A program made the translations under genes and the position numbers. The notes below the pieces were generated by a model. The model saw nothing but the letters and a program-made list of their open reading frames with translations, searched no databases and was not told where the DNA came from. Below, one piece after another: positions 26,541 to 33,738 of a DNA stretch of 64,000 nucleotides; the first letter of the stretch is position 1; the number at the start of each line of letters is the position of its first letter. The stretch comes from Thermoflexibacter ruber. GTDB taxonomy: Bacteria; Bacteroidota; Bacteroidia; Cytophagales; Thermoflexibacteraceae. The stretch spans positions 1 to 64,000 of the forward strand of contig NZ_FONY01000010.1 of the NCBI RefSeq assembly GCF_900113045.1, given 5' to 3'.

Positions 26541-28082
26541 TCAATCCAACTTAAACTCCTCAAAGCCAATATTTAACTTTTCATATTCTTGGACAAGGCT
26601 TTTAAAAGATTTAGAAAGGATAAGTTGGTGTATGGTATTGATGTCCTCAGCAAAAATGCGGTCTTCGGTAGCAAAAGCTACCTGTTGGCGAATTTGATTG
26701 ACTACGTCTTCTACAAGAGCAGTAGAGCGTAGAGGTCTTCTAAACTCTAAGGCTTGGGTAGCATACAGCATTTCTATTGCGAGAATATACTCCAAATTAT
26801 CAATGACTTGGTGCAATTTTCTTCCACTGATAGACCCCATAGAAACGTGGTCTTCCTGCCCAAGTGAGGTAGGGATACTATCCGCAGAGGCAGGAAAGCA
26901 AAGCGATTTGTTTTCAGAAACTAAGGCAGCAGTAGTATATTGAGGAATCATAAACCCAGAGTTTAATCCTGTTTCTTTTAATAAAAGGCGAGGCAGACCA
27001 AAACGTCCTTCTATCATCAAATAGCACCTCCTGTCCGAAATATTCCCTATCTCTGCGGCGGCTAAAGTAGCATAATCCAAAGGCAAGGCTAAGGGCTGTC
27101 CATGAAAATTGCCCCCACTTATCGTGTCATTTTCCCCAAAAATAATTGGATTATCTGTAACAGCATTGAGTTCTATCTCAGTGAGTTCCTTTAAGTGTAA
27201 CCACGCATTGCGAGAAGCCCCATGTACTTGTGGCATACATCGCAAGGAATAGGGGTCTTGCACTCTCTCACAATCCACATGAGATTTAAGTACTTCTGAT
27301 TCTTTGACTAAGTTATAGATTCTTTGAGCGACTAATAGGTTGCCTCTAAAAGGGCGAATCCGATGCAGTCGAGCCTCAAAAGGCTTGATAGACCCCATGA
27401 GAGCCTCCAAAGAAATAGCCCCAATAATATCAGCTAATTCTAAACAGTGATGCAAGCGAGCTACCCCCATGACGGCATGAGCCAAAATAAACTGCGTACC
27501 GTTGATAAGAGCTAAGCCTTCTTTTGCTCCCAGCTGGATAGGGGCTAAGTTGTACTTTTTTAAGATGTCAGCGGTAGGTACTATCTTGTTTTCATCAAAA
27601 ACCTCTCCCAAACCCAGCAAAGGCAAAAATAGATGAGAAAGCGGTGCTAAGTCCCCAGACGCACCTACAGAGCCTTTTTCAGGAACTACAGGAATCACAT
27701 CATTTTCTATGTGCCACAAAATCCTTTCTACTGTCGCTAAGTTTACTCCTGAAAAACCTTTGGCTAAGGATTGTACTTTGCAAATAAGCATGAGTTTAGC
27801 CAAATCTTTGGCAATAGGCTTCCCTACCCCAACGCTGTGGCTACGAAGTAGATTATATTGTAGGGTTTTGGTCTGAGTATCTGAAATAATAGTATCGCAC
27901 AAGACTCCAAAACCTGTATTGATACCATATACTTTTTCGCTTTTAGCTACAATGTTCTCAACATATTGCTGACTTTGAAGGATTTTTGTGCGAACTTCTG
28001 GGGTAAGCGTAGTAGCAAGAGAGCCATGCAGTATTTGTATAGCTTTACCGACAGTAAGCAAGTCCTTTCCGTAGTAAAACAT
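26541..28082 (-). CDS. hutH: Histidine ammonia-lyase
   Basis: 513 aa. Non-oxidative deamination of histidine to urocanate. The MIO cofactor is formed autocatalytically from A141-S142-G143 in GSVGASGDLAPLSH. The active-site tyrosine region VYGINTGFG and the later FHGQPLALPLDYA are present. Length matches HAL. No hutU, hutI or hutG follows in the window, so histidine degradation would rely on genes elsewhere. Aromatic ammonia-lyases share the fold, but the sequence fits HAL best. Confidence 0.93.
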   Translation of the reverse strand: MFYYGKDLLTVGKAIQILHGSLATTLTPEVRTKILQSQQYVENIVAKSEKVYGINTGFGVLCDTIISDTQTKTLQYNLLRSHSVGVGKPIAKDLAKLMLICKVQSLAKGFSGVNLATVERILWHIENDVIPVVPEKGSVGASGDLAPLSHLFLPLLGLGEVFDENKIVPTADILKKYNLAPIQLGAKEGLALINGTQFILAHAVMGVARLHHCLELADIIGAISLEALMGSIKPFEARLHRIRPFRGNLLVAQRIYNLVKESEVLKSHVDCERVQDPYSLRCMPQVHGASRNAWLHLKELTEIELNAVTDNPIIFGENDTISGGNFHGQPLALPLDYATLAAAEIGNISDRRCYLMIEGRFGLPRLLLKETGLNSGFMIPQYTTAALVSENKSLCFPASADSIPTSLGQEDHVSMGSISGRKLHQVIDNLEYILAIEMLYATQALEFRRPLRSTALVEDVVNQIRQQVAFATEDRIFAEDINTIHQLILSKSFKSLVQEYEKLNIGFEEFKLD

Positions 28083-28201
28083 AAGTTGGTATAATTTAAA
28101 GTTTATTGGTTAAGACTATAATTGAACGAATACGATGCTTAAAAAATTGATTTAAAAAAGTTATTTGTATAAGAGTCTGTTTATCAAGCCAAGCCGTATT
28201 A

Positions 28202-28238
28202 ATAAAAAACCACTAAACTACATGACGTAATTTAGTGG
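28202..28238 (-). terminator. Intrinsic terminator of tRNA-Leu
   Basis: CCACTAAA (28210-28217) pairs with TTTAGTGG (28231-28238), followed on the minus strand by a T-rich run (28201-28209). It begins 16 nt beyond the tRNA 3' end. The rest of 28083-28201 holds nothing I recognise. Confidence 0.8.
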
Positions 28239-28253
28239 CTTATCTCTTTAAAA

Positions 28254-28337
28254 TACCCAGAACCGGAATCGAACCGGTATGGGAAAACTCCCACTGGTTT
28301 TTGAGACCAGCGCGTCTACCTGTTCCGCCATCTGGGC
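28254..28337 (-). tRNA. tRNA-Leu (anticodon CAA)
   Basis: Minus-strand cloverleaf of 84 nt: acceptor 5' GCCCAGA pairs with 3' TCTGGGT (one G-U at the first pair). The D arm carries GGTAGACGC, the anticodon arm CTGGT-CTCAAAA-ACCAG gives anticodon CAA, and a class II variable arm (GGGAGTTTTCCC) is followed by the TpsiC arm GGTTCGATTCC. The long variable arm confirms a type II tRNA. CCA is not encoded. Reads UUG leucine codons. Confidence 0.97.
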
Positions 28338-28417
28338 TACTGTTGAATTAGTGTTTGTTTTGAGTGGTGCAAAGGTCATATCTTTTTTTCTTTTTTACAA
28401 GTCTTTCTTAAAATTTT

Positions 28418-29128
28418 TTATTTGTAGATGATGCCTCTATATCTAAATGCCCATTTCCAATGAAGCGTATAGTTTTGAATGTCTGCTTGTTGGAGTAGAT
28501 TTTTTAACTCTTGATATTTGAAAGCACGCAAAACTGACAAGGGGGCATCGTGCTGAACCAAATAAGAACCTCTTAAAATTTTAGTAATGTACTTAATGCT
28601 GTAATAAGCAAACCAATGGCGATGCAAGTCATTGATAATAAATGCAATACGAATTTGATTTTGTATTTGAGAAAATAGTTTGACCAACTCTGCATCAGTA
28701 AAATGATGACAAAATAGGCTACAAATGACTATATCAAACTTTTGATTTTCAAATTCGTCTGAAAAAATGTTCAGCTTTTTAAAATGAATATCAGCTTTTT
28801 TTTGCTTAGCTTTATCTTGGGCATAGTCGAGCATGAATGGGTTGGCATCTATGTCGATGAGCTGAAGGTTGAGCTTATGCTGTTTTCCCCATTTAAAAAT
28901 TTCCCTGAGTGTATCTCCACCCCCACAACCCAAGTCAGCAATGCTAATGCTTTGATTAGGAGGCAGCAAACCCTGTCTATGCAATTTCTTTAATGCTCCT
29001 ATGACAATGCTGTTCCCTCCTAAGTATTTGTTTACCAGTTCTAATTCATCTAAATTTTTTTTTAGAGCCTCATTAGCCAAACTAAGGTCATCCATAAGTT
29101 CAGGTTGAGAGGAGCGAGATTCAAACAT
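28418..29128 (-). CDS. Class I SAM-dependent methyltransferase
   Basis: 236 aa. SAM motif I ADLGCGGGDT at about 64-73, acidic residue in LIDIDANPFML, and motif IV DIVICSLFCHHF. The N-terminal FESRSSQPELMDD is shared with Bacteroidota methyltransferases that often sit in polyketide or flexirubin-type pigment loci, but no such genes are here. Substrate unknown, probably a small molecule. It lies just downstream of the EcoRI-type methylase gene, whose final codons supply a promoter-like box. Confidence 0.85.
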   Translation of the reverse strand: MFESRSSQPELMDDLSLANEALKKNLDELELVNKYLGGNSIVIGALKKLHRQGLLPPNQSISIADLGCGGGDTLREIFKWGKQHKLNLQLIDIDANPFMLDYAQDKAKQKKADIHFKKLNIFSDEFENQKFDIVICSLFCHHFTDAELVKLFSQIQNQIRIAFIINDLHRHWFAYYSIKYITKILRGSYLVQHDAPLSVLRAFKYQELKNLLQQADIQNYTLHWKWAFRYRGIIYK

Positions 29129-29172
29129 CTTTATTAGGCTTTTTATGGTGTGTTGATGATAAGATTAACTTC

Positions 29173-30210
29173 TCAAAAGTAAGCAACTTTGACAAAATTT
29201 TGTGTTTTATCAAAGTCGCCTGCTGGCTTTTTTCTATCTTCTTTTGATTTATTCTGTATTCGTTTGTTTCTAATAATTATTCTAAAATATGGACATTTAC
29301 CATTGATTGCCAAGTCTTTTCCGTCATTCCCTTTTCTGAATTTAATTATTTCAAATTGGTCTGGATTAAATTTGTGTAGAAATGTTATAGGAACGCCCAT
29401 ATATCCGTCATAATCCAATGGTATATCCTCTGTTTTATCAACGTTTATGCCGTCATAGTTGTCATATTTTGGATATTCGGCTTCGTTCCCAAAATATTTT
29501 TTTGTAAGTTGTATGTCTTCGTGTCGTTTGAAGTTGTCTAAATTTGTTAACCAAAGGCAATTATTTGGGGATACTATCCTGTTTCCTAAACTGTCTATTC
29601 GTGCTTCTGTTCCAAAAAGTTCGTAGTGGTCGGGCACAATAAAACCTGAAATACCTCTGCCAAGATGTATGCCTAACCATGCTTTGTTTTCCTTAATAAG
29701 TTTAAAAATTTCTTTGTATGTTATGGCATTTATGTTACCAATAATCAAAAACTTTTTTTCATATTTTACTAACTGCTCCACATACTCTCTGAATAATGAA
29801 AAGGGCGGATTGGTAACAACAATATCGGATTGTTTTAAGAGTTCAATGCTTTCAGCACTACGAAAATCACCATCTCCATTAAACTCTTTTATTTCAATTG
29901 GCGTATTGGGTTCTGAATACTCTGTGAAAAAGCCTTTTTTTACGTTACCATTATTGAACAAATTTATTTCTTGCTTTTGATAACAGGCGGTTATGATTTT
30001 TTTTAAACCTAATTCATTGAAATTTAATGAAAAATATTTGAAAAAATTGCTGGTTTTTGGGTCATCGCAATTACAAAAAACCACTTTGTTCTTAAAATGG
30101 CTTTTGTAATGTTGTAATTCACTTTCTATATCGCAAAGTTGCGTATAGAACTCATCACTTTTTGATTTTTTTGCATTTTGCAATAATTTATTTGTTGCAT
30201 TTCTTGCCAT
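29173..30210 (-). CDS. EcoRI-type adenine-specific DNA methyltransferase (M.EcoRI homologue)
   Basis: 345 aa. Predicted to N6-methylate the second adenine of GAATTC. The N-terminus MARNATNKLL...AKKSKSDEFYTQ and segments such as FCNCDDPKTSNFFKYF, LGRGISGFIVPDHYEL and SPNNCLWLTNLD are near-identical to M.EcoRI as remembered (326 aa). Catalytic NPPF is at 134-137. The C-terminus is about 20 residues longer and basic. It begins 12 nt after the endonuclease stop, the same R-then-M order as in the E. coli EcoRI operon. Nothing suggests inactivation. Base composition is AT-rich like its surroundings. Confidence 0.96.
   Translation of the reverse strand: MARNATNKLLQNAKKSKSDEFYTQLCDIESELQHYKSHFKNKVVFCNCDDPKTSNFFKYFSLNFNELGLKKIITACYQKQEINLFNNGNVKKGFFTEYSEPNTPIEIKEFNGDGDFRSAESIELLKQSDIVVTNPPFSLFREYVEQLVKYEKKFLIIGNINAITYKEIFKLIKENKAWLGIHLGRGISGFIVPDHYELFGTEARIDSLGNRIVSPNNCLWLTNLDNFKRHEDIQLTKKYFGNEAEYPKYDNYDGINVDKTEDIPLDYDGYMGVPITFLHKFNPDQFEIIKFRKGNDGKDLAINGKCPYFRIIIRNKRIQNKSKEDRKKPAGDFDKTQNFVKVAYF
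29174..29181 (-). promoter_or_regulatory. -7 box TACTTTTG formed by the last codons of the methylase gene
   Basis: The methylase ends Tyr-Phe-stop (TAC TTT TGA), which spells TACTTTTG, an exact -7 element. A start about 6 nt downstream would give a UTR of about 40 nt to the methyltransferase ATG at 29128. TTTG with proper spacing is not found. Confidence 0.4.
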
Positions 30211-30222
30211 AACCCTTCTTTT

Positions 30223-31056
30223 TTACTTTTTGGTTATCTGATTGAATAAATCACTGCCCAAGACTTTAAGGGAAGTTTTTGAAATTTCAATCATAATCTC
30301 AAACATTTCCTTACTGTTCCACTTTTCTCCCTTTCCTTGCGTATAAATAGACGTTGCTTGAAGCATAATCGTTTTGTCTTTGTGCTTAACAAATTTATTC
30401 ACGCAAAGATTAGTGTTAATCGGCATTCCATAATTTGCAGAAGTCAGCCTGTCTAATCTATTTAACATACCCGAGTTATATTCAAGGGTTACTATTCTTC
30501 CATCAGGTCTTTCAATGGCAATTGTTTCAGTTAAAAAGTTAGAACCTTCTAAAAACAGGACATAAGGAAAATGTGATTCAGCAAGCATAAAGTTAGCAAT
30601 TTCTGATATATTTTTATGTGACCTTTCAATCGCATTACCAGCCGCCATCAAATCTTGATTATCCGCTTTTCTGACTAAAATACCTTTTTTAATATTCTCA
30701 ATGTCTTTTCCTTGATGTTTTGCTCCTGAAACTAAAATGACTCTCCAACTATCGTTGTCGTCCTTTACTTCAATTATTCCGCCATCGGGGATAATGCTTG
30801 AGTTTGGAACGAAAAGAGTTTGTCCTAATTCCGGGTCAATTTTCTGTAATGCTTCGTTTATTTCTTCTTTCCGAATACTTGTTCTGTAACGGAAAGTCAA
30901 TTGCGGATATTCTTCTTCAAGTTGTGCGACAACAAATTTTGATATTTCTCCAACTGTTAAGTCGTGTAATTTTGCTTCGTCTCCAAAAATACCTACTACT
31001 CCTTGTGATTTTTTATGTTGGTTTGTCAATCTTGTTGATTGGTTCTTTTTTGCCAT
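30223..31056 (-). CDS. EcoRI-type restriction endonuclease with catalytic Glu111 replaced by Gly
   Basis: 277 aa, exactly EcoRI length, and alignable without gaps to EcoRI from memory: QSTRLTNQHKKSQGV, FRYRTSIRKEEINEAL, DLMAAGNAIERSHKNISEI and NLCVNKFVKHKDK are all close matches. In EcoRI the cleavage centre is D91, E111 and K113. Here D91 (IIPDGG) and K113 are present, but position 111 is Gly (LVSGAKHQGKD; codon GGA at 30724-30726). Residues contacting GAATTC are kept: Q115, K117, M137, N141, A142, E144, R145, R200 and R203. E111 substitution (E111Q) is known to abolish cutting while retaining tight specific binding. The start ATG 31056 has a -7 box 22 nt upstream, so it is probably expressed. 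Either a natural non-cutting GAATTC binder, recent decay, or a base error. Confidence 0.95.
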   Translation of the reverse strand: MAKKNQSTRLTNQHKKSQGVVGIFGDEAKLHDLTVGEISKFVVAQLEEEYPQLTFRYRTSIRKEEINEALQKIDPELGQTLFVPNSSIIPDGGIIEVKDDNDSWRVILVSGAKHQGKDIENIKKGILVRKADNQDLMAAGNAIERSHKNISEIANFMLAESHFPYVLFLEGSNFLTETIAIERPDGRIVTLEYNSGMLNRLDRLTSANYGMPINTNLCVNKFVKHKDKTIMLQATSIYTQGKGEKWNSKEMFEIMIEISKTSLKVLGSDLFNQITKK

Positions 31057-31077
31057 TTTATCAATTATATTTTCTTA

Positions 31078-31085
31078 CAAATTTA
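31078..31085 (-). promoter_or_regulatory. -7 box TAAATTTG for the EcoRI-like R-M operon
   Basis: Plus CAAATTTA reads TAAATTTG on the minus strand, an exact TAnnTTTG match 22 nt before the endonuclease ATG. No TTTG lies at the usual distance upstream, where the palindromic element begins. Confidence 0.4.
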
Positions 31086-31114
31086 GCAGTAATGGTCGTC
31101 TTTTAAGCTTGCAG

Positions 31115-31246
31115 GCAACGTTTTGCAGCTTGGCGCAGTGGTGGATTTTGAAGCACAAAACTGTCAATAAACCACAAAAGTTGGTTCGGGGTAAAATGTT
31201 CAGTTAACCATATCACCCACCATTACACCAAGCCGCTGTTAGTTGC
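31115..31246. repeat. 132-bp imperfect palindrome, attC-like
   Basis: The ends are GCAAC (31115) and GTTGC (31246). The reverse complement of the right end (GCGGCTTGGTGTAATGGTGG) matches the left arm GCAGCTTGGCGCAGTGGTGG at 16 of 20 positions. Weaker pairing continues inward (AACTGTCAATAAACC against AACTGAACATTTTACC). The GTTAG core, the terminal GCAAC/GTTGC and the length of about 130 nt recall integron attC sites, which are imperfect palindromes of 60-140 nt. The core GTTAGTT departs from consensus GTTRRRY. It separates phhA from the R-M pair. Confidence 0.6.
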
Positions 31247-31265
31247 AAATGAATTTTACATTTGC

Positions 31266-32003
31266 TTATGCCATAGCTATTTCCTCCTCCAATACTCTTT
31301 CTAAAGTAGGCAGGGAATCATAAAGTTCTTTGTAAGAATGAATTACAAAGTATTTTTCTTGGAATTTATCCCTAATGTAAGGAGTATGAACGATTTGTTC
31401 CACATCAAAGGGGACTTTTTGAGGTTTATCACTGAGGCTGTAAACAGACTCGCCGCTTGAGGAGAGAATGCCTGCACCGTAAATTCTAAGCCCCTCAGGG
31501 TCTTGGATTAGTCCAAACTCTACCGTGTACCAGTACAGGCGGGCTATCATTTCTACCCCCAACTCGCTATCTAAGAAACGCAAAGCAATGGCACTCAGCC
31601 CTTTGAGGAAGTCGCAAAAGTCCAAATTGGTTAGCATAGGGATATGCCCAAAAGTATCATGGAACATGTCTGGCTCTTCCAAGTAGTCTAACTGTTCTAA
31701 CTTTCTCAACCAAGTCGAGGCGGGAAATCGCTTGGTCAAAAGTAGTTCAAAAAATTCTTTGTTAGGAATCAGTCCCTTGACTACTTCAATGCTCCAGCCG
31801 CTGATAGCCATTAAATGTTTGTTGGTTTCCTCATAATTAGGAATACACTCTCTTGTAAAACCAATAGCTTGGATACCTTCTAAGTATGCCTTAGAGGCTA
31901 AGTTTGGCAGCTGCTTCATCTGTCTATCAAAAAGTAATTGCCAAACGTGGTGGTCTTCGGGAGTGTACTTAGCGTAGTCTTGTCGCATATTAAAACTCAC
32001 CAT
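31266..32003 (-). CDS. phhA: Phenylalanine 4-monooxygenase
   Basis: 245 aa from ATG 32003. Pterin-dependent, non-heme iron enzyme converting phenylalanine to tyrosine. Iron ligands H115 and H120 (FHDTFGHIP) and E162 (YWYTVEFGL) are present. The frame is open upstream to 32048, but those residues are not conserved; ATG at 31988 (MRQDY) is an alternative. Length matches bacterial PAH. It has its own consensus promoter and no pterin recycling gene beside it. The attC-like palindrome starts 20 nt beyond its stop. Confidence 0.95.
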   Translation of the reverse strand: MVSFNMRQDYAKYTPEDHHVWQLLFDRQMKQLPNLASKAYLEGIQAIGFTRECIPNYEETNKHLMAISGWSIEVVKGLIPNKEFFELLLTKRFPASTWLRKLEQLDYLEEPDMFHDTFGHIPMLTNLDFCDFLKGLSAIALRFLDSELGVEMIARLYWYTVEFGLIQDPEGLRIYGAGILSSSGESVYSLSDKPQKVPFDVEQIVHTPYIRDKFQEKYFVIHSYKELYDSLPTLERVLEEEIAMA

Positions 32004-32045
32004 AGTCGTTGTTAAATTGGTTAAGGTTATGTATATTTTTTGGAA

Positions 32046-32076
32046 CAAAAATAGTAAAATTTAGTCAAAAGACAAA
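32046..32076 (-). promoter_or_regulatory. Consensus promoter for phhA
   Basis: On the minus strand TTTG (32076-32073), a 19-nt spacer, then TATTTTTG (32053-32046). Both elements and the spacing are exact. Predicted UTR of about 37 nt. Confidence 0.7.
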
Positions 32077-32224
32077 AGCAACTATATTCAGTATTTACGC
32101 AAAGGACTACAAAATAGTTGAGTTATGGCGTAAACAACAAGCAAGGGAAAATTTTTTTATCATTCTCTATATACTTTGGGCAAGTTTGGCTAACTTGCTG
32201 GTTTAAATTATTCATCAAAACACA

Positions 32225-32665
32225 ATGACAGCAGAAATTCATACAGAAAAAGGAGTAATGAAGGTTTCATTTTTTGAAAAAGATACTCCAAATACAGTAG
32301 CTAACTTTGTTGATTTAGCGAAAAAAGGCTTTTATGACGGACTTACTTTCCATAGGGTTGTACCGAACTTTGTCATTCAAGGCGGTTGCCCAAGAGGAGA
32401 CGGACGTGGCGGACCGGGCTATACTATCAAATGTGAATTGGACGGCGACAACCAGTACCATGAACGAGGAGTACTTTCTATGGCTCATGCAGGCAAAGAT
32501 ACAGGAGGTTCGCAATTTTTTATATGTCATAACAGAGAAAATACCAAGCACTTAGACCGTAAACACACTGCTTTTGGAAAGGTGTTTGAAGGTTTGGAAG
32601 TGATAGACCAAATTCGTCAAGGTGATAAAATTATAAAAATCATTATTTTAGATGATAAGGTATAG
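32225..32665 (+). CDS. Cyclophilin-type peptidyl-prolyl cis-trans isomerase
   Basis: 146 aa without signal peptide, so cytoplasmic (PpiB-like). Conserved segments: [20 protein letters not shown], with the catalytic Arg, [17 protein letters not shown] and [15 protein letters not shown]. Short bacterial cyclophilins of this size are common in Bacteroidota. It is a single gene between phhA and gldN. Confidence 0.93.
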
Positions 32666-32771
32666 TGTCTTATCGGTCGTACCTTTATTTTTGAGGAAAA
32701 GTTAGTAGGTCGGTAGGAGTGTTTTAGCAAAGATTAGGTAGTAAGCAAAAAGAAAATTTTAGGAAAATTGT

Positions 32772-32779
32772 TACTTTTG
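32772..32779 (+). promoter_or_regulatory. -7 box TACTTTTG before gldN
   Basis: Exact TAnnTTTG match 94 nt before ATG 32866; no TTTG at the standard -33 distance. Predicted UTR about 82 nt. Confidence 0.45.
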
Positions 32780-32865
32780 CAAGCTAATTGCTATAAATGA
32801 GCAAAGAAAGTCTAATGGTCTTTTCTTTAATTATATAGCATAGCTTTTTAAAACATTTGAAATAT

Positions 32866-33738
32866 ATGAGGAAATTGCTTTTGTTCGCTTTTTTGGTTTT
32901 TACTAACTATTCTTTGCTTGCGCAAACTAAACCCGCACCCAAAGATAATGGTTACAATCCGAATTCTTTGCGTCCTATCCACAAGCACGACCAACTTTTT
33001 AAAAGGACACTTTGGGTTAGAATGGATTGCAGAGAAAAAATGAATAAGTCTTTTCATGCAAAAAATCATGAACTTGCCAGAGTGATTTTAGATGGGGTAA
33101 AAGCAGGTCTAATACGCCCATACATGAATGATTCTTTGATTACTCGAATGGACGAGCAGACCTTCATAGAAAGGCTGACCATTCCTGAGGGGGCACCTGA
33201 ACTAAGTGCAGAAGAAAAAGCCTTAGGGTTCAAACCCGAGGACTTGCTCACAGGCGGAGGCGATGCTTGGGAAGATGATGAAGACGACAAAGAGAAAGCA
33301 AAAGTTCCTACCAATAGATTTTATCTCCCTCAAGATATGTACATTTTTGAAATCAAAATGGATTTGATTTTTGATAAAAAACGTTCAAGAATGTATCGTG
33401 ATATTCAAGCTATTACCATTATTATTCCTGCTGAGCGCAACCCTGCCAAAGGAATAGATATGCCGATTGCTACTTTCTCTTTCAAAGAATTAGCCAGAGA
33501 TGTTTTTGAAGAAAATGAGCAAGCCATCTGGTACAACTTTGAAAATCCTGCAGCACACATGAATCTTTTACATGCCTTTGACCTGAATCTGTTTAATGGT
33601 AGAATTGTCAAAATGGAAAATGGTGATGATTTGTATATAGATACTATGTATGGCAACAACCAAAGGGCAGCTCTCATTGCTTCTGAACAGATTAAGTATG
33701 ACTTAGTAGAGTTTGAGGCTTTGCTTTGGGAATACTAA
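32866..33738 (+). CDS. gldN: Gliding motility / type IX secretion protein GldN
   Basis: 290 aa from ATG 32866 (MRKLLLFAFLVFTNYSLLAQ signal peptide); the in-frame TTG at 32857 is not needed. Conserved GldN/PorN features: HDQLFKRTLWVRMDCREKMNK-type start of the mature region, an acidic low-complexity stretch EDDEDDKEKAK at about 145, and FKELARDVFEENEQAIWYN. GldN forms a periplasmic ring with GldK in the type IX secretion system used for secretion and, in many species, gliding. gldK, gldL and gldM are not in the window, so this is a detached or duplicate copy. Contains a GAATTC site at 32961. Confidence 0.93.
   Translation: MRKLLLFAFLVFTNYSLLAQTKPAPKDNGYNPNSLRPIHKHDQLFKRTLWVRMDCREKMNKSFHAKNHELARVILDGVKAGLIRPYMNDSLITRMDEQTFIERLTIPEGAPELSAEEKALGFKPEDLLTGGGDAWEDDEDDKEKAKVPTNRFYLPQDMYIFEIKMDLIFDKKRSRMYRDIQAITIIIPAERNPAKGIDMPIATFSFKELARDVFEENEQAIWYNFENPAAHMNLLHAFDLNLFNGRIVKMENGDDLYIDTMYGNNQRAALIASEQIKYDLVEFEALLWEY

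Follow-up and report, generated by a model that had tools for sequence, protein, structure and literature searches.

A natural EcoRI homologue with glycine at the catalytic Glu111 position beside an intact methylase gene in Thermoflexibacter ruber: probable early decay of a restriction-modification pair

For engineered EcoRI E111G, King 1989 and Wright 1989 are the works cited in PMC2807033 and PMC4437897, and Wright 1989 is also said to be the source for its tight binding and lethality. The catalytic site of EcoRI itself is given as D91, E111 and K113 in a review (PMC4081073). According to the accounts in PMC2807033 and PMC6158625, the engineered E111G protein binds its own site with greatly reduced cleavage and halts reconstituted E. 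coli replisomes at EcoRI sites in vitro; both accounts describe that Rep aids forks past this block in vitro, and PMC2807033 describes the same for UvrD. Very tight binding and lethality at high expression are reported in PMC4437897. EcoRI E111G is already known as a laboratory roadblock protein.

The window, a stretch of 64,000 nucleotides from Thermoflexibacter ruber, encodes on its minus strand an EcoRI-family endonuclease homologue of 277 aa with Gly at 111 and Arg at 129 (30223..31056). The open reading frame begins with ATG and contains zero internal stops. The gapless end-to-end alignment to EcoRI over 277 aa that the initial annotation had proposed was borne out: 210/277 residues (76%) are identical to EcoRI of the E. 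coli plasmid NZ_CP103650.1, ungapped, and a phmmer search against PDB chains matched EcoRI 1ckq (E 3.2e-138, residues 3-277 against 2-276). Membership in the EcoRI family follows from the Pfam profile PF02963, which matched residues 17-273 with 501.6 bits (cut-off 22); in NCBIfam, neither the endonuclease nor its methylase was matched at E 0.001. An AlphaFold monomer of the endonuclease was of low confidence (mean pLDDT 61), and with this model five PDB entries were matched at E 0.001 or lower, all of them EcoRI (best E 2.1e-29, TM 0.64, rmsd 8.3). The endonuclease gave a single match in its own 5.50-Mb genome (123 contigs).

The catalytic triad D91-E111-K113 is incomplete in the window protein, where D91 and K113 are present and residue 111 is Gly; Q115 is likewise the EcoRI residue. 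For reading GAATTC we take M137, A138, G140, N141, A142, E144, R145, I197, R200 and R203 to be the relevant residues, and all of these are identical to EcoRI except that 197 is Met. Retention of D91, K113, M137, N141, A142, E144, R145, R200 and R203, as first proposed for this protein, was therefore confirmed by alignment. Over the 34 positions compared, K89I and R131A also distinguish the window protein from EcoRI, in addition to I197M, and K89I is common among relatives. As a separate observation, the His that EcoRI and most relatives have at position 114 is replaced by Arg, Asn, Val or Tyr in others (L057, L058, L066, L068, L073, L079 and the plasmid loci L119-L121). Changes at EcoRI position 114 relax specificity.

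The methylase gene (29173..30210, minus strand) starts 12 bp after the endonuclease gene and encodes an EcoRI-type adenine methyltransferase of 345 aa with a TNPPF motif. The Pfam profile PF13651 (EcoRI_methylase) matched residues 10-315 with 430 bits, and TNPPF was present in 76/76 aligned methylases, window included. The window methylase departs at one near-invariant column (Y199F), a change common to two other sequences, and the C-terminal tail past approximately residue 320 differs between loci. As in a type II restriction-modification (R-M) system, the gene next to that of the endonuclease encodes its cognate methyltransferase, with both frame and motif intact, and judged by its sequence this enzyme presumably methylates GAATTC.

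Codon 111 of the endonuclease gene reads GGA (30724..30726, minus strand; tcc on the plus strand). In 82/82 other codon-aligned relatives this codon is GAA or GAG, and in the nearest relative, L002, it is GAA, so that the Gly codon lies one transition from a Glu codon, exactly as the initial annotation had stated. Glu111 was found in 94/94 distinct relatives where the position was read, and the window alone carries Gly among these 95 distinct sequences, a set derived from 108 loci, of which some are duplicates and two are the window. It was found in 80/80 loci taken from genome-contig relatives (133 found, 80 read), in 6 plasmid records (6/19 read), in 4 viral-contig relatives, two of them identical, and also, wherever the match spans position 111, in the relatives from whole-genome searches (39, 395 and 390 genomes); the position-111 count leaves aside the other 53 genome-contig relatives, 13/19 plasmid records, the phage record PQ159904 and L092, whose match misses the position. 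Viral contigs gave 0 matches to the Gly111 pattern G-A-K-H-Q-G-K-D. EcoRI DNA was detected in 7/5426 E. coli genomes, in 6 of them at full length and at least 99.8% identity, with residue 111 read in one E. coli EcoRI record only (NZ_CP103650.1). No sequence read other than the window has a substitution at D91, E111 or K113. Altogether, Gly111 is not a family feature: possible recurrence in related strains was checked and no second Gly111 turned up, no clade with a shared dead site emerged from the 95 distinct sequences read, and a search of the open-access literature returned no natural EcoRI variant at position 111.

A second unique change, Gly129Arg, was absent from the initial annotation. 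Codon 129 is AGA (30670..30672, minus strand), lies 18 codons from codon 111 and differs from the L002 codon at two bases. Gly occupies this position in 82/82 other codon-aligned relatives and in 93/93 distinct relatives covering it, Arg in the window only. At columns conserved to at least 97%, the window endonuclease departs twice (E111G, G129R); other endonuclease sequences depart 0 to 6 times, many relatives 0-2 times, and two distant sequences reach 14 and 18 departures. E111G aside, R129 is not beyond the usual variation of the family.

These two changes bear on the foremost alternative to a true loss of the catalytic residue, namely a consensus error in sequencing or assembly, in which case the true residue would be Glu111 and the enzyme a normal, functional EcoRI isoschizomer. 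The change is seen in a single genome, one base from the Glu codon of L002, in an endonuclease that is otherwise constrained (see below) and with no other Gly111 found, all of which would fit such an error. However, the assembly is 99.64% complete and 0.08% contaminated, figures that describe it in general and not base 30725, and the second unique change, 18 codons off and two bases from the L002 codon, makes the gene unusual irrespective of base 30725 and speaks against an error in the same indirect manner, since it does not concern that base either. We consider a consensus error unlikely.

Selection was studied with a codon model on a 29-sequence endonuclease tree, in which individual terminal branches were given their own dN/dS, with a fixed topology and fixed background rates. 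The window is the sister of L002 in this tree. On its branch, dN/dS of the endonuclease was 0.041, no different from the background of 0.057 (2dlnL 0.37; against 1, 2dlnL 20.4), and that of the methylase was 0.047 against 0.064 (2dlnL 0.81; against 1, 2dlnL 54.5). Over the 16 endonuclease branches tested, values ranged from 0.036 to 0.121. When the end portion of the window branch was left unconstrained, 2dlnL amounted to 0.79 at 2%, 2.46 at 5%, 5.29 at 10% and 20 at 100% of the branch; by interpolation at the 3.84 level, a neutral period is limited to approximately the last 7% of the branch. The low ratio on the window branch together with the rise of 2dlnL between 5% and 10% means that any neutral stretch was short. 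The endonuclease has therefore either lost its use very recently or remains constrained. Two broken endonucleases served as controls and were low as well, L010 (stop at codon 219) with 0.062 and L064 (frameshift) with 0.109, these being the only 2 of 5 loci with broken endonuclease and intact methylase in the 29-sequence tree. dN/dS bounds the age of a loss, but because both controls are broken yet low it was rejected as proof of retained function. Provided that the breaks are real, the broken endonucleases of this family look constrained through recent breakage.

R-M decay usually goes nuclease first. In 70 of the 80 loci, both endonuclease and methylase were free of stops and frameshifts, with the methylase cut by a contig end in 5. 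A broken endonuclease next to an intact methylase was found in 5/80 loci (L010, L033, L041, L049, L064), the reverse in 1/80 (L048, on a MAG contig with coverage 1.59) and two broken genes in 2/80 (L071, L072), whereas the methylase was not found in 2/80, one of which is explained by a contig end. A further broken endonuclease, outside the 80 loci, came from G541. Many loci are metagenome assemblies, so some of these breaks may be assembly errors; read with this limit, the excess of broken endonucleases over broken methylases fits nuclease-first decay. Separately, L054 has an intact EcoRI-type endonuclease and no EcoRI-type methylase within the fetched locus (4 kb on the downstream side).

The interval separating the endonuclease gene from that for phenylalanine hydroxylase contains a possible cassette border, an attC-like repeat (31090..31265, plus strand) whose inverted arms are imperfect. 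Counting this copy, the genome has 12 matching pieces at approximately 10 places, with copies on contigs C19, C25, C36, C88 and C108 of G000 (L136-L138). The C19 copy adjoins genes that by eye resemble a type III R-M pair, and two C25 copies lie among consecutive small genes with no apparent relation to one another. In L006, L007 and L008, the EcoRI pair is bracketed by repeat copies of the same orientation, of which the upstream one in L007 is weak (E 0.009). The repeat may delimit cassettes in an array of integron type; a search for the integron integrase family gave no match above the cut-off, and folding of 31100-31262 as DNA was not significant (z -0.97). Rfam detected only a tRNA in the region 28000-33000 (28254-28337, minus strand), near a methyltransferase-like gene (28418-29128). 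When 13 window genes were compared with 16-kb regions around the phenylalanine hydroxylase gene of the same-genus genomes G001 and G002, this gene alone was strongly matched, besides one weak 22% match in G002, and no shared insertion that could date the locus was seen in the regions compared. In G002, the endonuclease sequence is identical to L021, and the R-M pair is on another contig than the phenylalanine hydroxylase gene region. The lack of a shared neighbourhood with the same-genus genomes in these regions is in line with transfer.

GAATTC occurs at 197 sites in the 5.50-Mb genome, and its reversal, CTTAAG, at 173. Where the search turned up no EcoRI homologue, relatives had 175 (G001, 62% complete), 182 (G003), 276 (G004), 266 (G006), 222 (G008), 144 (G009) and 268 (G010) sites, and those with a homologue had 239 (G002) and 197 (G005). 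Scarcity of GAATTC was therefore rejected as a sign of EcoRI activity, since the site is similarly rare in most relatives compared, whether or not a homologue was found, and the window is poor in palindromes of many kinds. G007, a member of the same family with no homologue found, has 1575 sites, compared with 144 to 276 in the nine other relatives. The window (1-64000) is short of many six-base palindromes, for example GTATAC (0, 7.6 expected), CATATG (0, 7.8 expected), CCATGG (0, 7.9 expected) and GATATC (1, 15.4 expected), which suggests past R-M activities or general avoidance.

Because the engineered protein with the same substitution binds its site but cleaves far less, and given 76% identity and the same recognition residues, the window protein is predicted to be a non-cutting GAATTC-binder; binding without cutting, the property first proposed for it, is a sound prediction as far as E111G is described in PMC2807033 and PMC4437897. 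The reading that we regard as probable is a recently cleavage-dead EcoRI in the early decay of a mobile R-M pair. A horizontally mobile EcoRI-type pair would recently have lost cleavage with its catalytic Glu111, leaving a mutant protein that would still fold, dimerise and bind unmethylated GAATTC while cleaving far less. Protection of the host GAATTC sites by the methylase would make this protein tolerated and nearly harmless, with little restriction; it would act only on unmethylated incoming DNA, at best as a roadblock, and the methylase would be kept since it is harmless or still needed. What the sequences show directly is the substitution, the fact that no relative read shares it, the open frames and the constraint on the branch; binding without cutting is carried over from the laboratory mutant, and methylation activity, mobility and decay are inferred. 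Early decay is favoured because Glu111 was lost uniquely among the relatives read, with a second change at the otherwise invariant column 129 while the methylase has a single departure that others share, because loss of the endonuclease with the methylase kept recurs in relatives, and because any neutral stretch on the branch was short. Several points count against it. The R129-type departure is at an ordinary level, not more than common in the family; a full-length, constrained frame is equally expected of a still useful protein; several broken relatives come from metagenome assemblies, where the breaks may be errors; and the change is carried by one genome only, where a consensus error is possible. 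In our ranking, early decay stands first, followed by consensus error and then by defence through binding alone.

In the last of these, the Gly111 protein would be kept to block replication and transcription on unmethylated GAATTC of phage or plasmid DNA, with the methylase marking self. The recognition residues are kept, neutral decay beyond approximately 7% of the branch was rejected, and the engineered protein is described as blocking E. coli replisomes at GAATTC in vitro (PMC2807033), yet according to the same account forks could pass with the aid of Rep or UvrD. Moreover, no second Gly111 sequence was found, and with the broken L010 and L064 also low, constraint is no evidence of present function. 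We judge this explanation quite improbable. Early decay was thus the better of the options offered by the initial annotation; a dedicated roadblock or regulator is possible at most, as no second Gly111 came to light, and lost further ground since the low dN/dS is matched by broken genes and the sites of a regulator should be methylated.

Cleavage could also have been kept if another acidic residue took over metal binding. Some PD-(D/E)XK enzymes draw the acid from a neighbouring element (Cfr10I type), and at position 120 the window protein carries Glu instead of the Ile of E. coli EcoRI. However, Glu120 is common in relatives with Glu111 and so is not compensating, and of the 20 differences from L002, those with an acidic residue in the window protein are at 26, 48, 49 and 253, none of them near 111 in sequence. 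With E111G of EcoRI itself described as cleaving far less (PMC2807033), a substitute acid is very unlikely. Least probable of all is domestication, with the protein regulating host genes through their GAATTC sites; natural nuclease-dead regulators of another family provide a precedent (TldR, 'TnpB-like nuclease-dead repressors', as presented in PMC13418256), but the sequence-intact methylase should methylate the 197 genomic GAATTC sites and so prevent binding, and GAATTC is also scarce in relatives that yielded no EcoRI homologue.

With its own methylase alongside, a natural protein that bears the roadblock substitution lets one test directly if binding is enough for protection by a restriction enzyme. 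If binding-only defence were true, the system would be a protein counterpart of CRISPR interference, arising from the same single change that laboratories introduced. The case also bears on R-M decay, as a missense loss of cutting ahead of frame loss; even if it is decay only, it documents a route by which a probable tight binder stays behind in the cell, covered by the methylase.

Compared with known systems, the window pair resembles EcoRI (PF02963; PDB 1ckq, 1eri, 2oxv) in end-to-end ungapped homology, in D91, K113 and the recognition segment, and in the order of endonuclease then methylase, both in one direction; it differs in Gly111 for the catalytic Glu and Arg129 for Gly. The methylase is like the EcoRI methyltransferase (PF13651) in the profile match over residues 10-315 and in TNPPF, and its apparent integrity, as initially annotated, agrees with the open frame, the motif and the constrained dN/dS. 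With decayed R-M pairs such as those of Microcystis (L041, L049) the window shares a disabled nuclease and an intact methylase frame, but these pairs carry stop codons, whereas the window has a missense change expected to keep DNA binding. Engineered EcoRI E111G has the same substitution at the same residue; unlike it, the window version is natural, comes with its own methylase and has 66 other differences, Arg129 among them.
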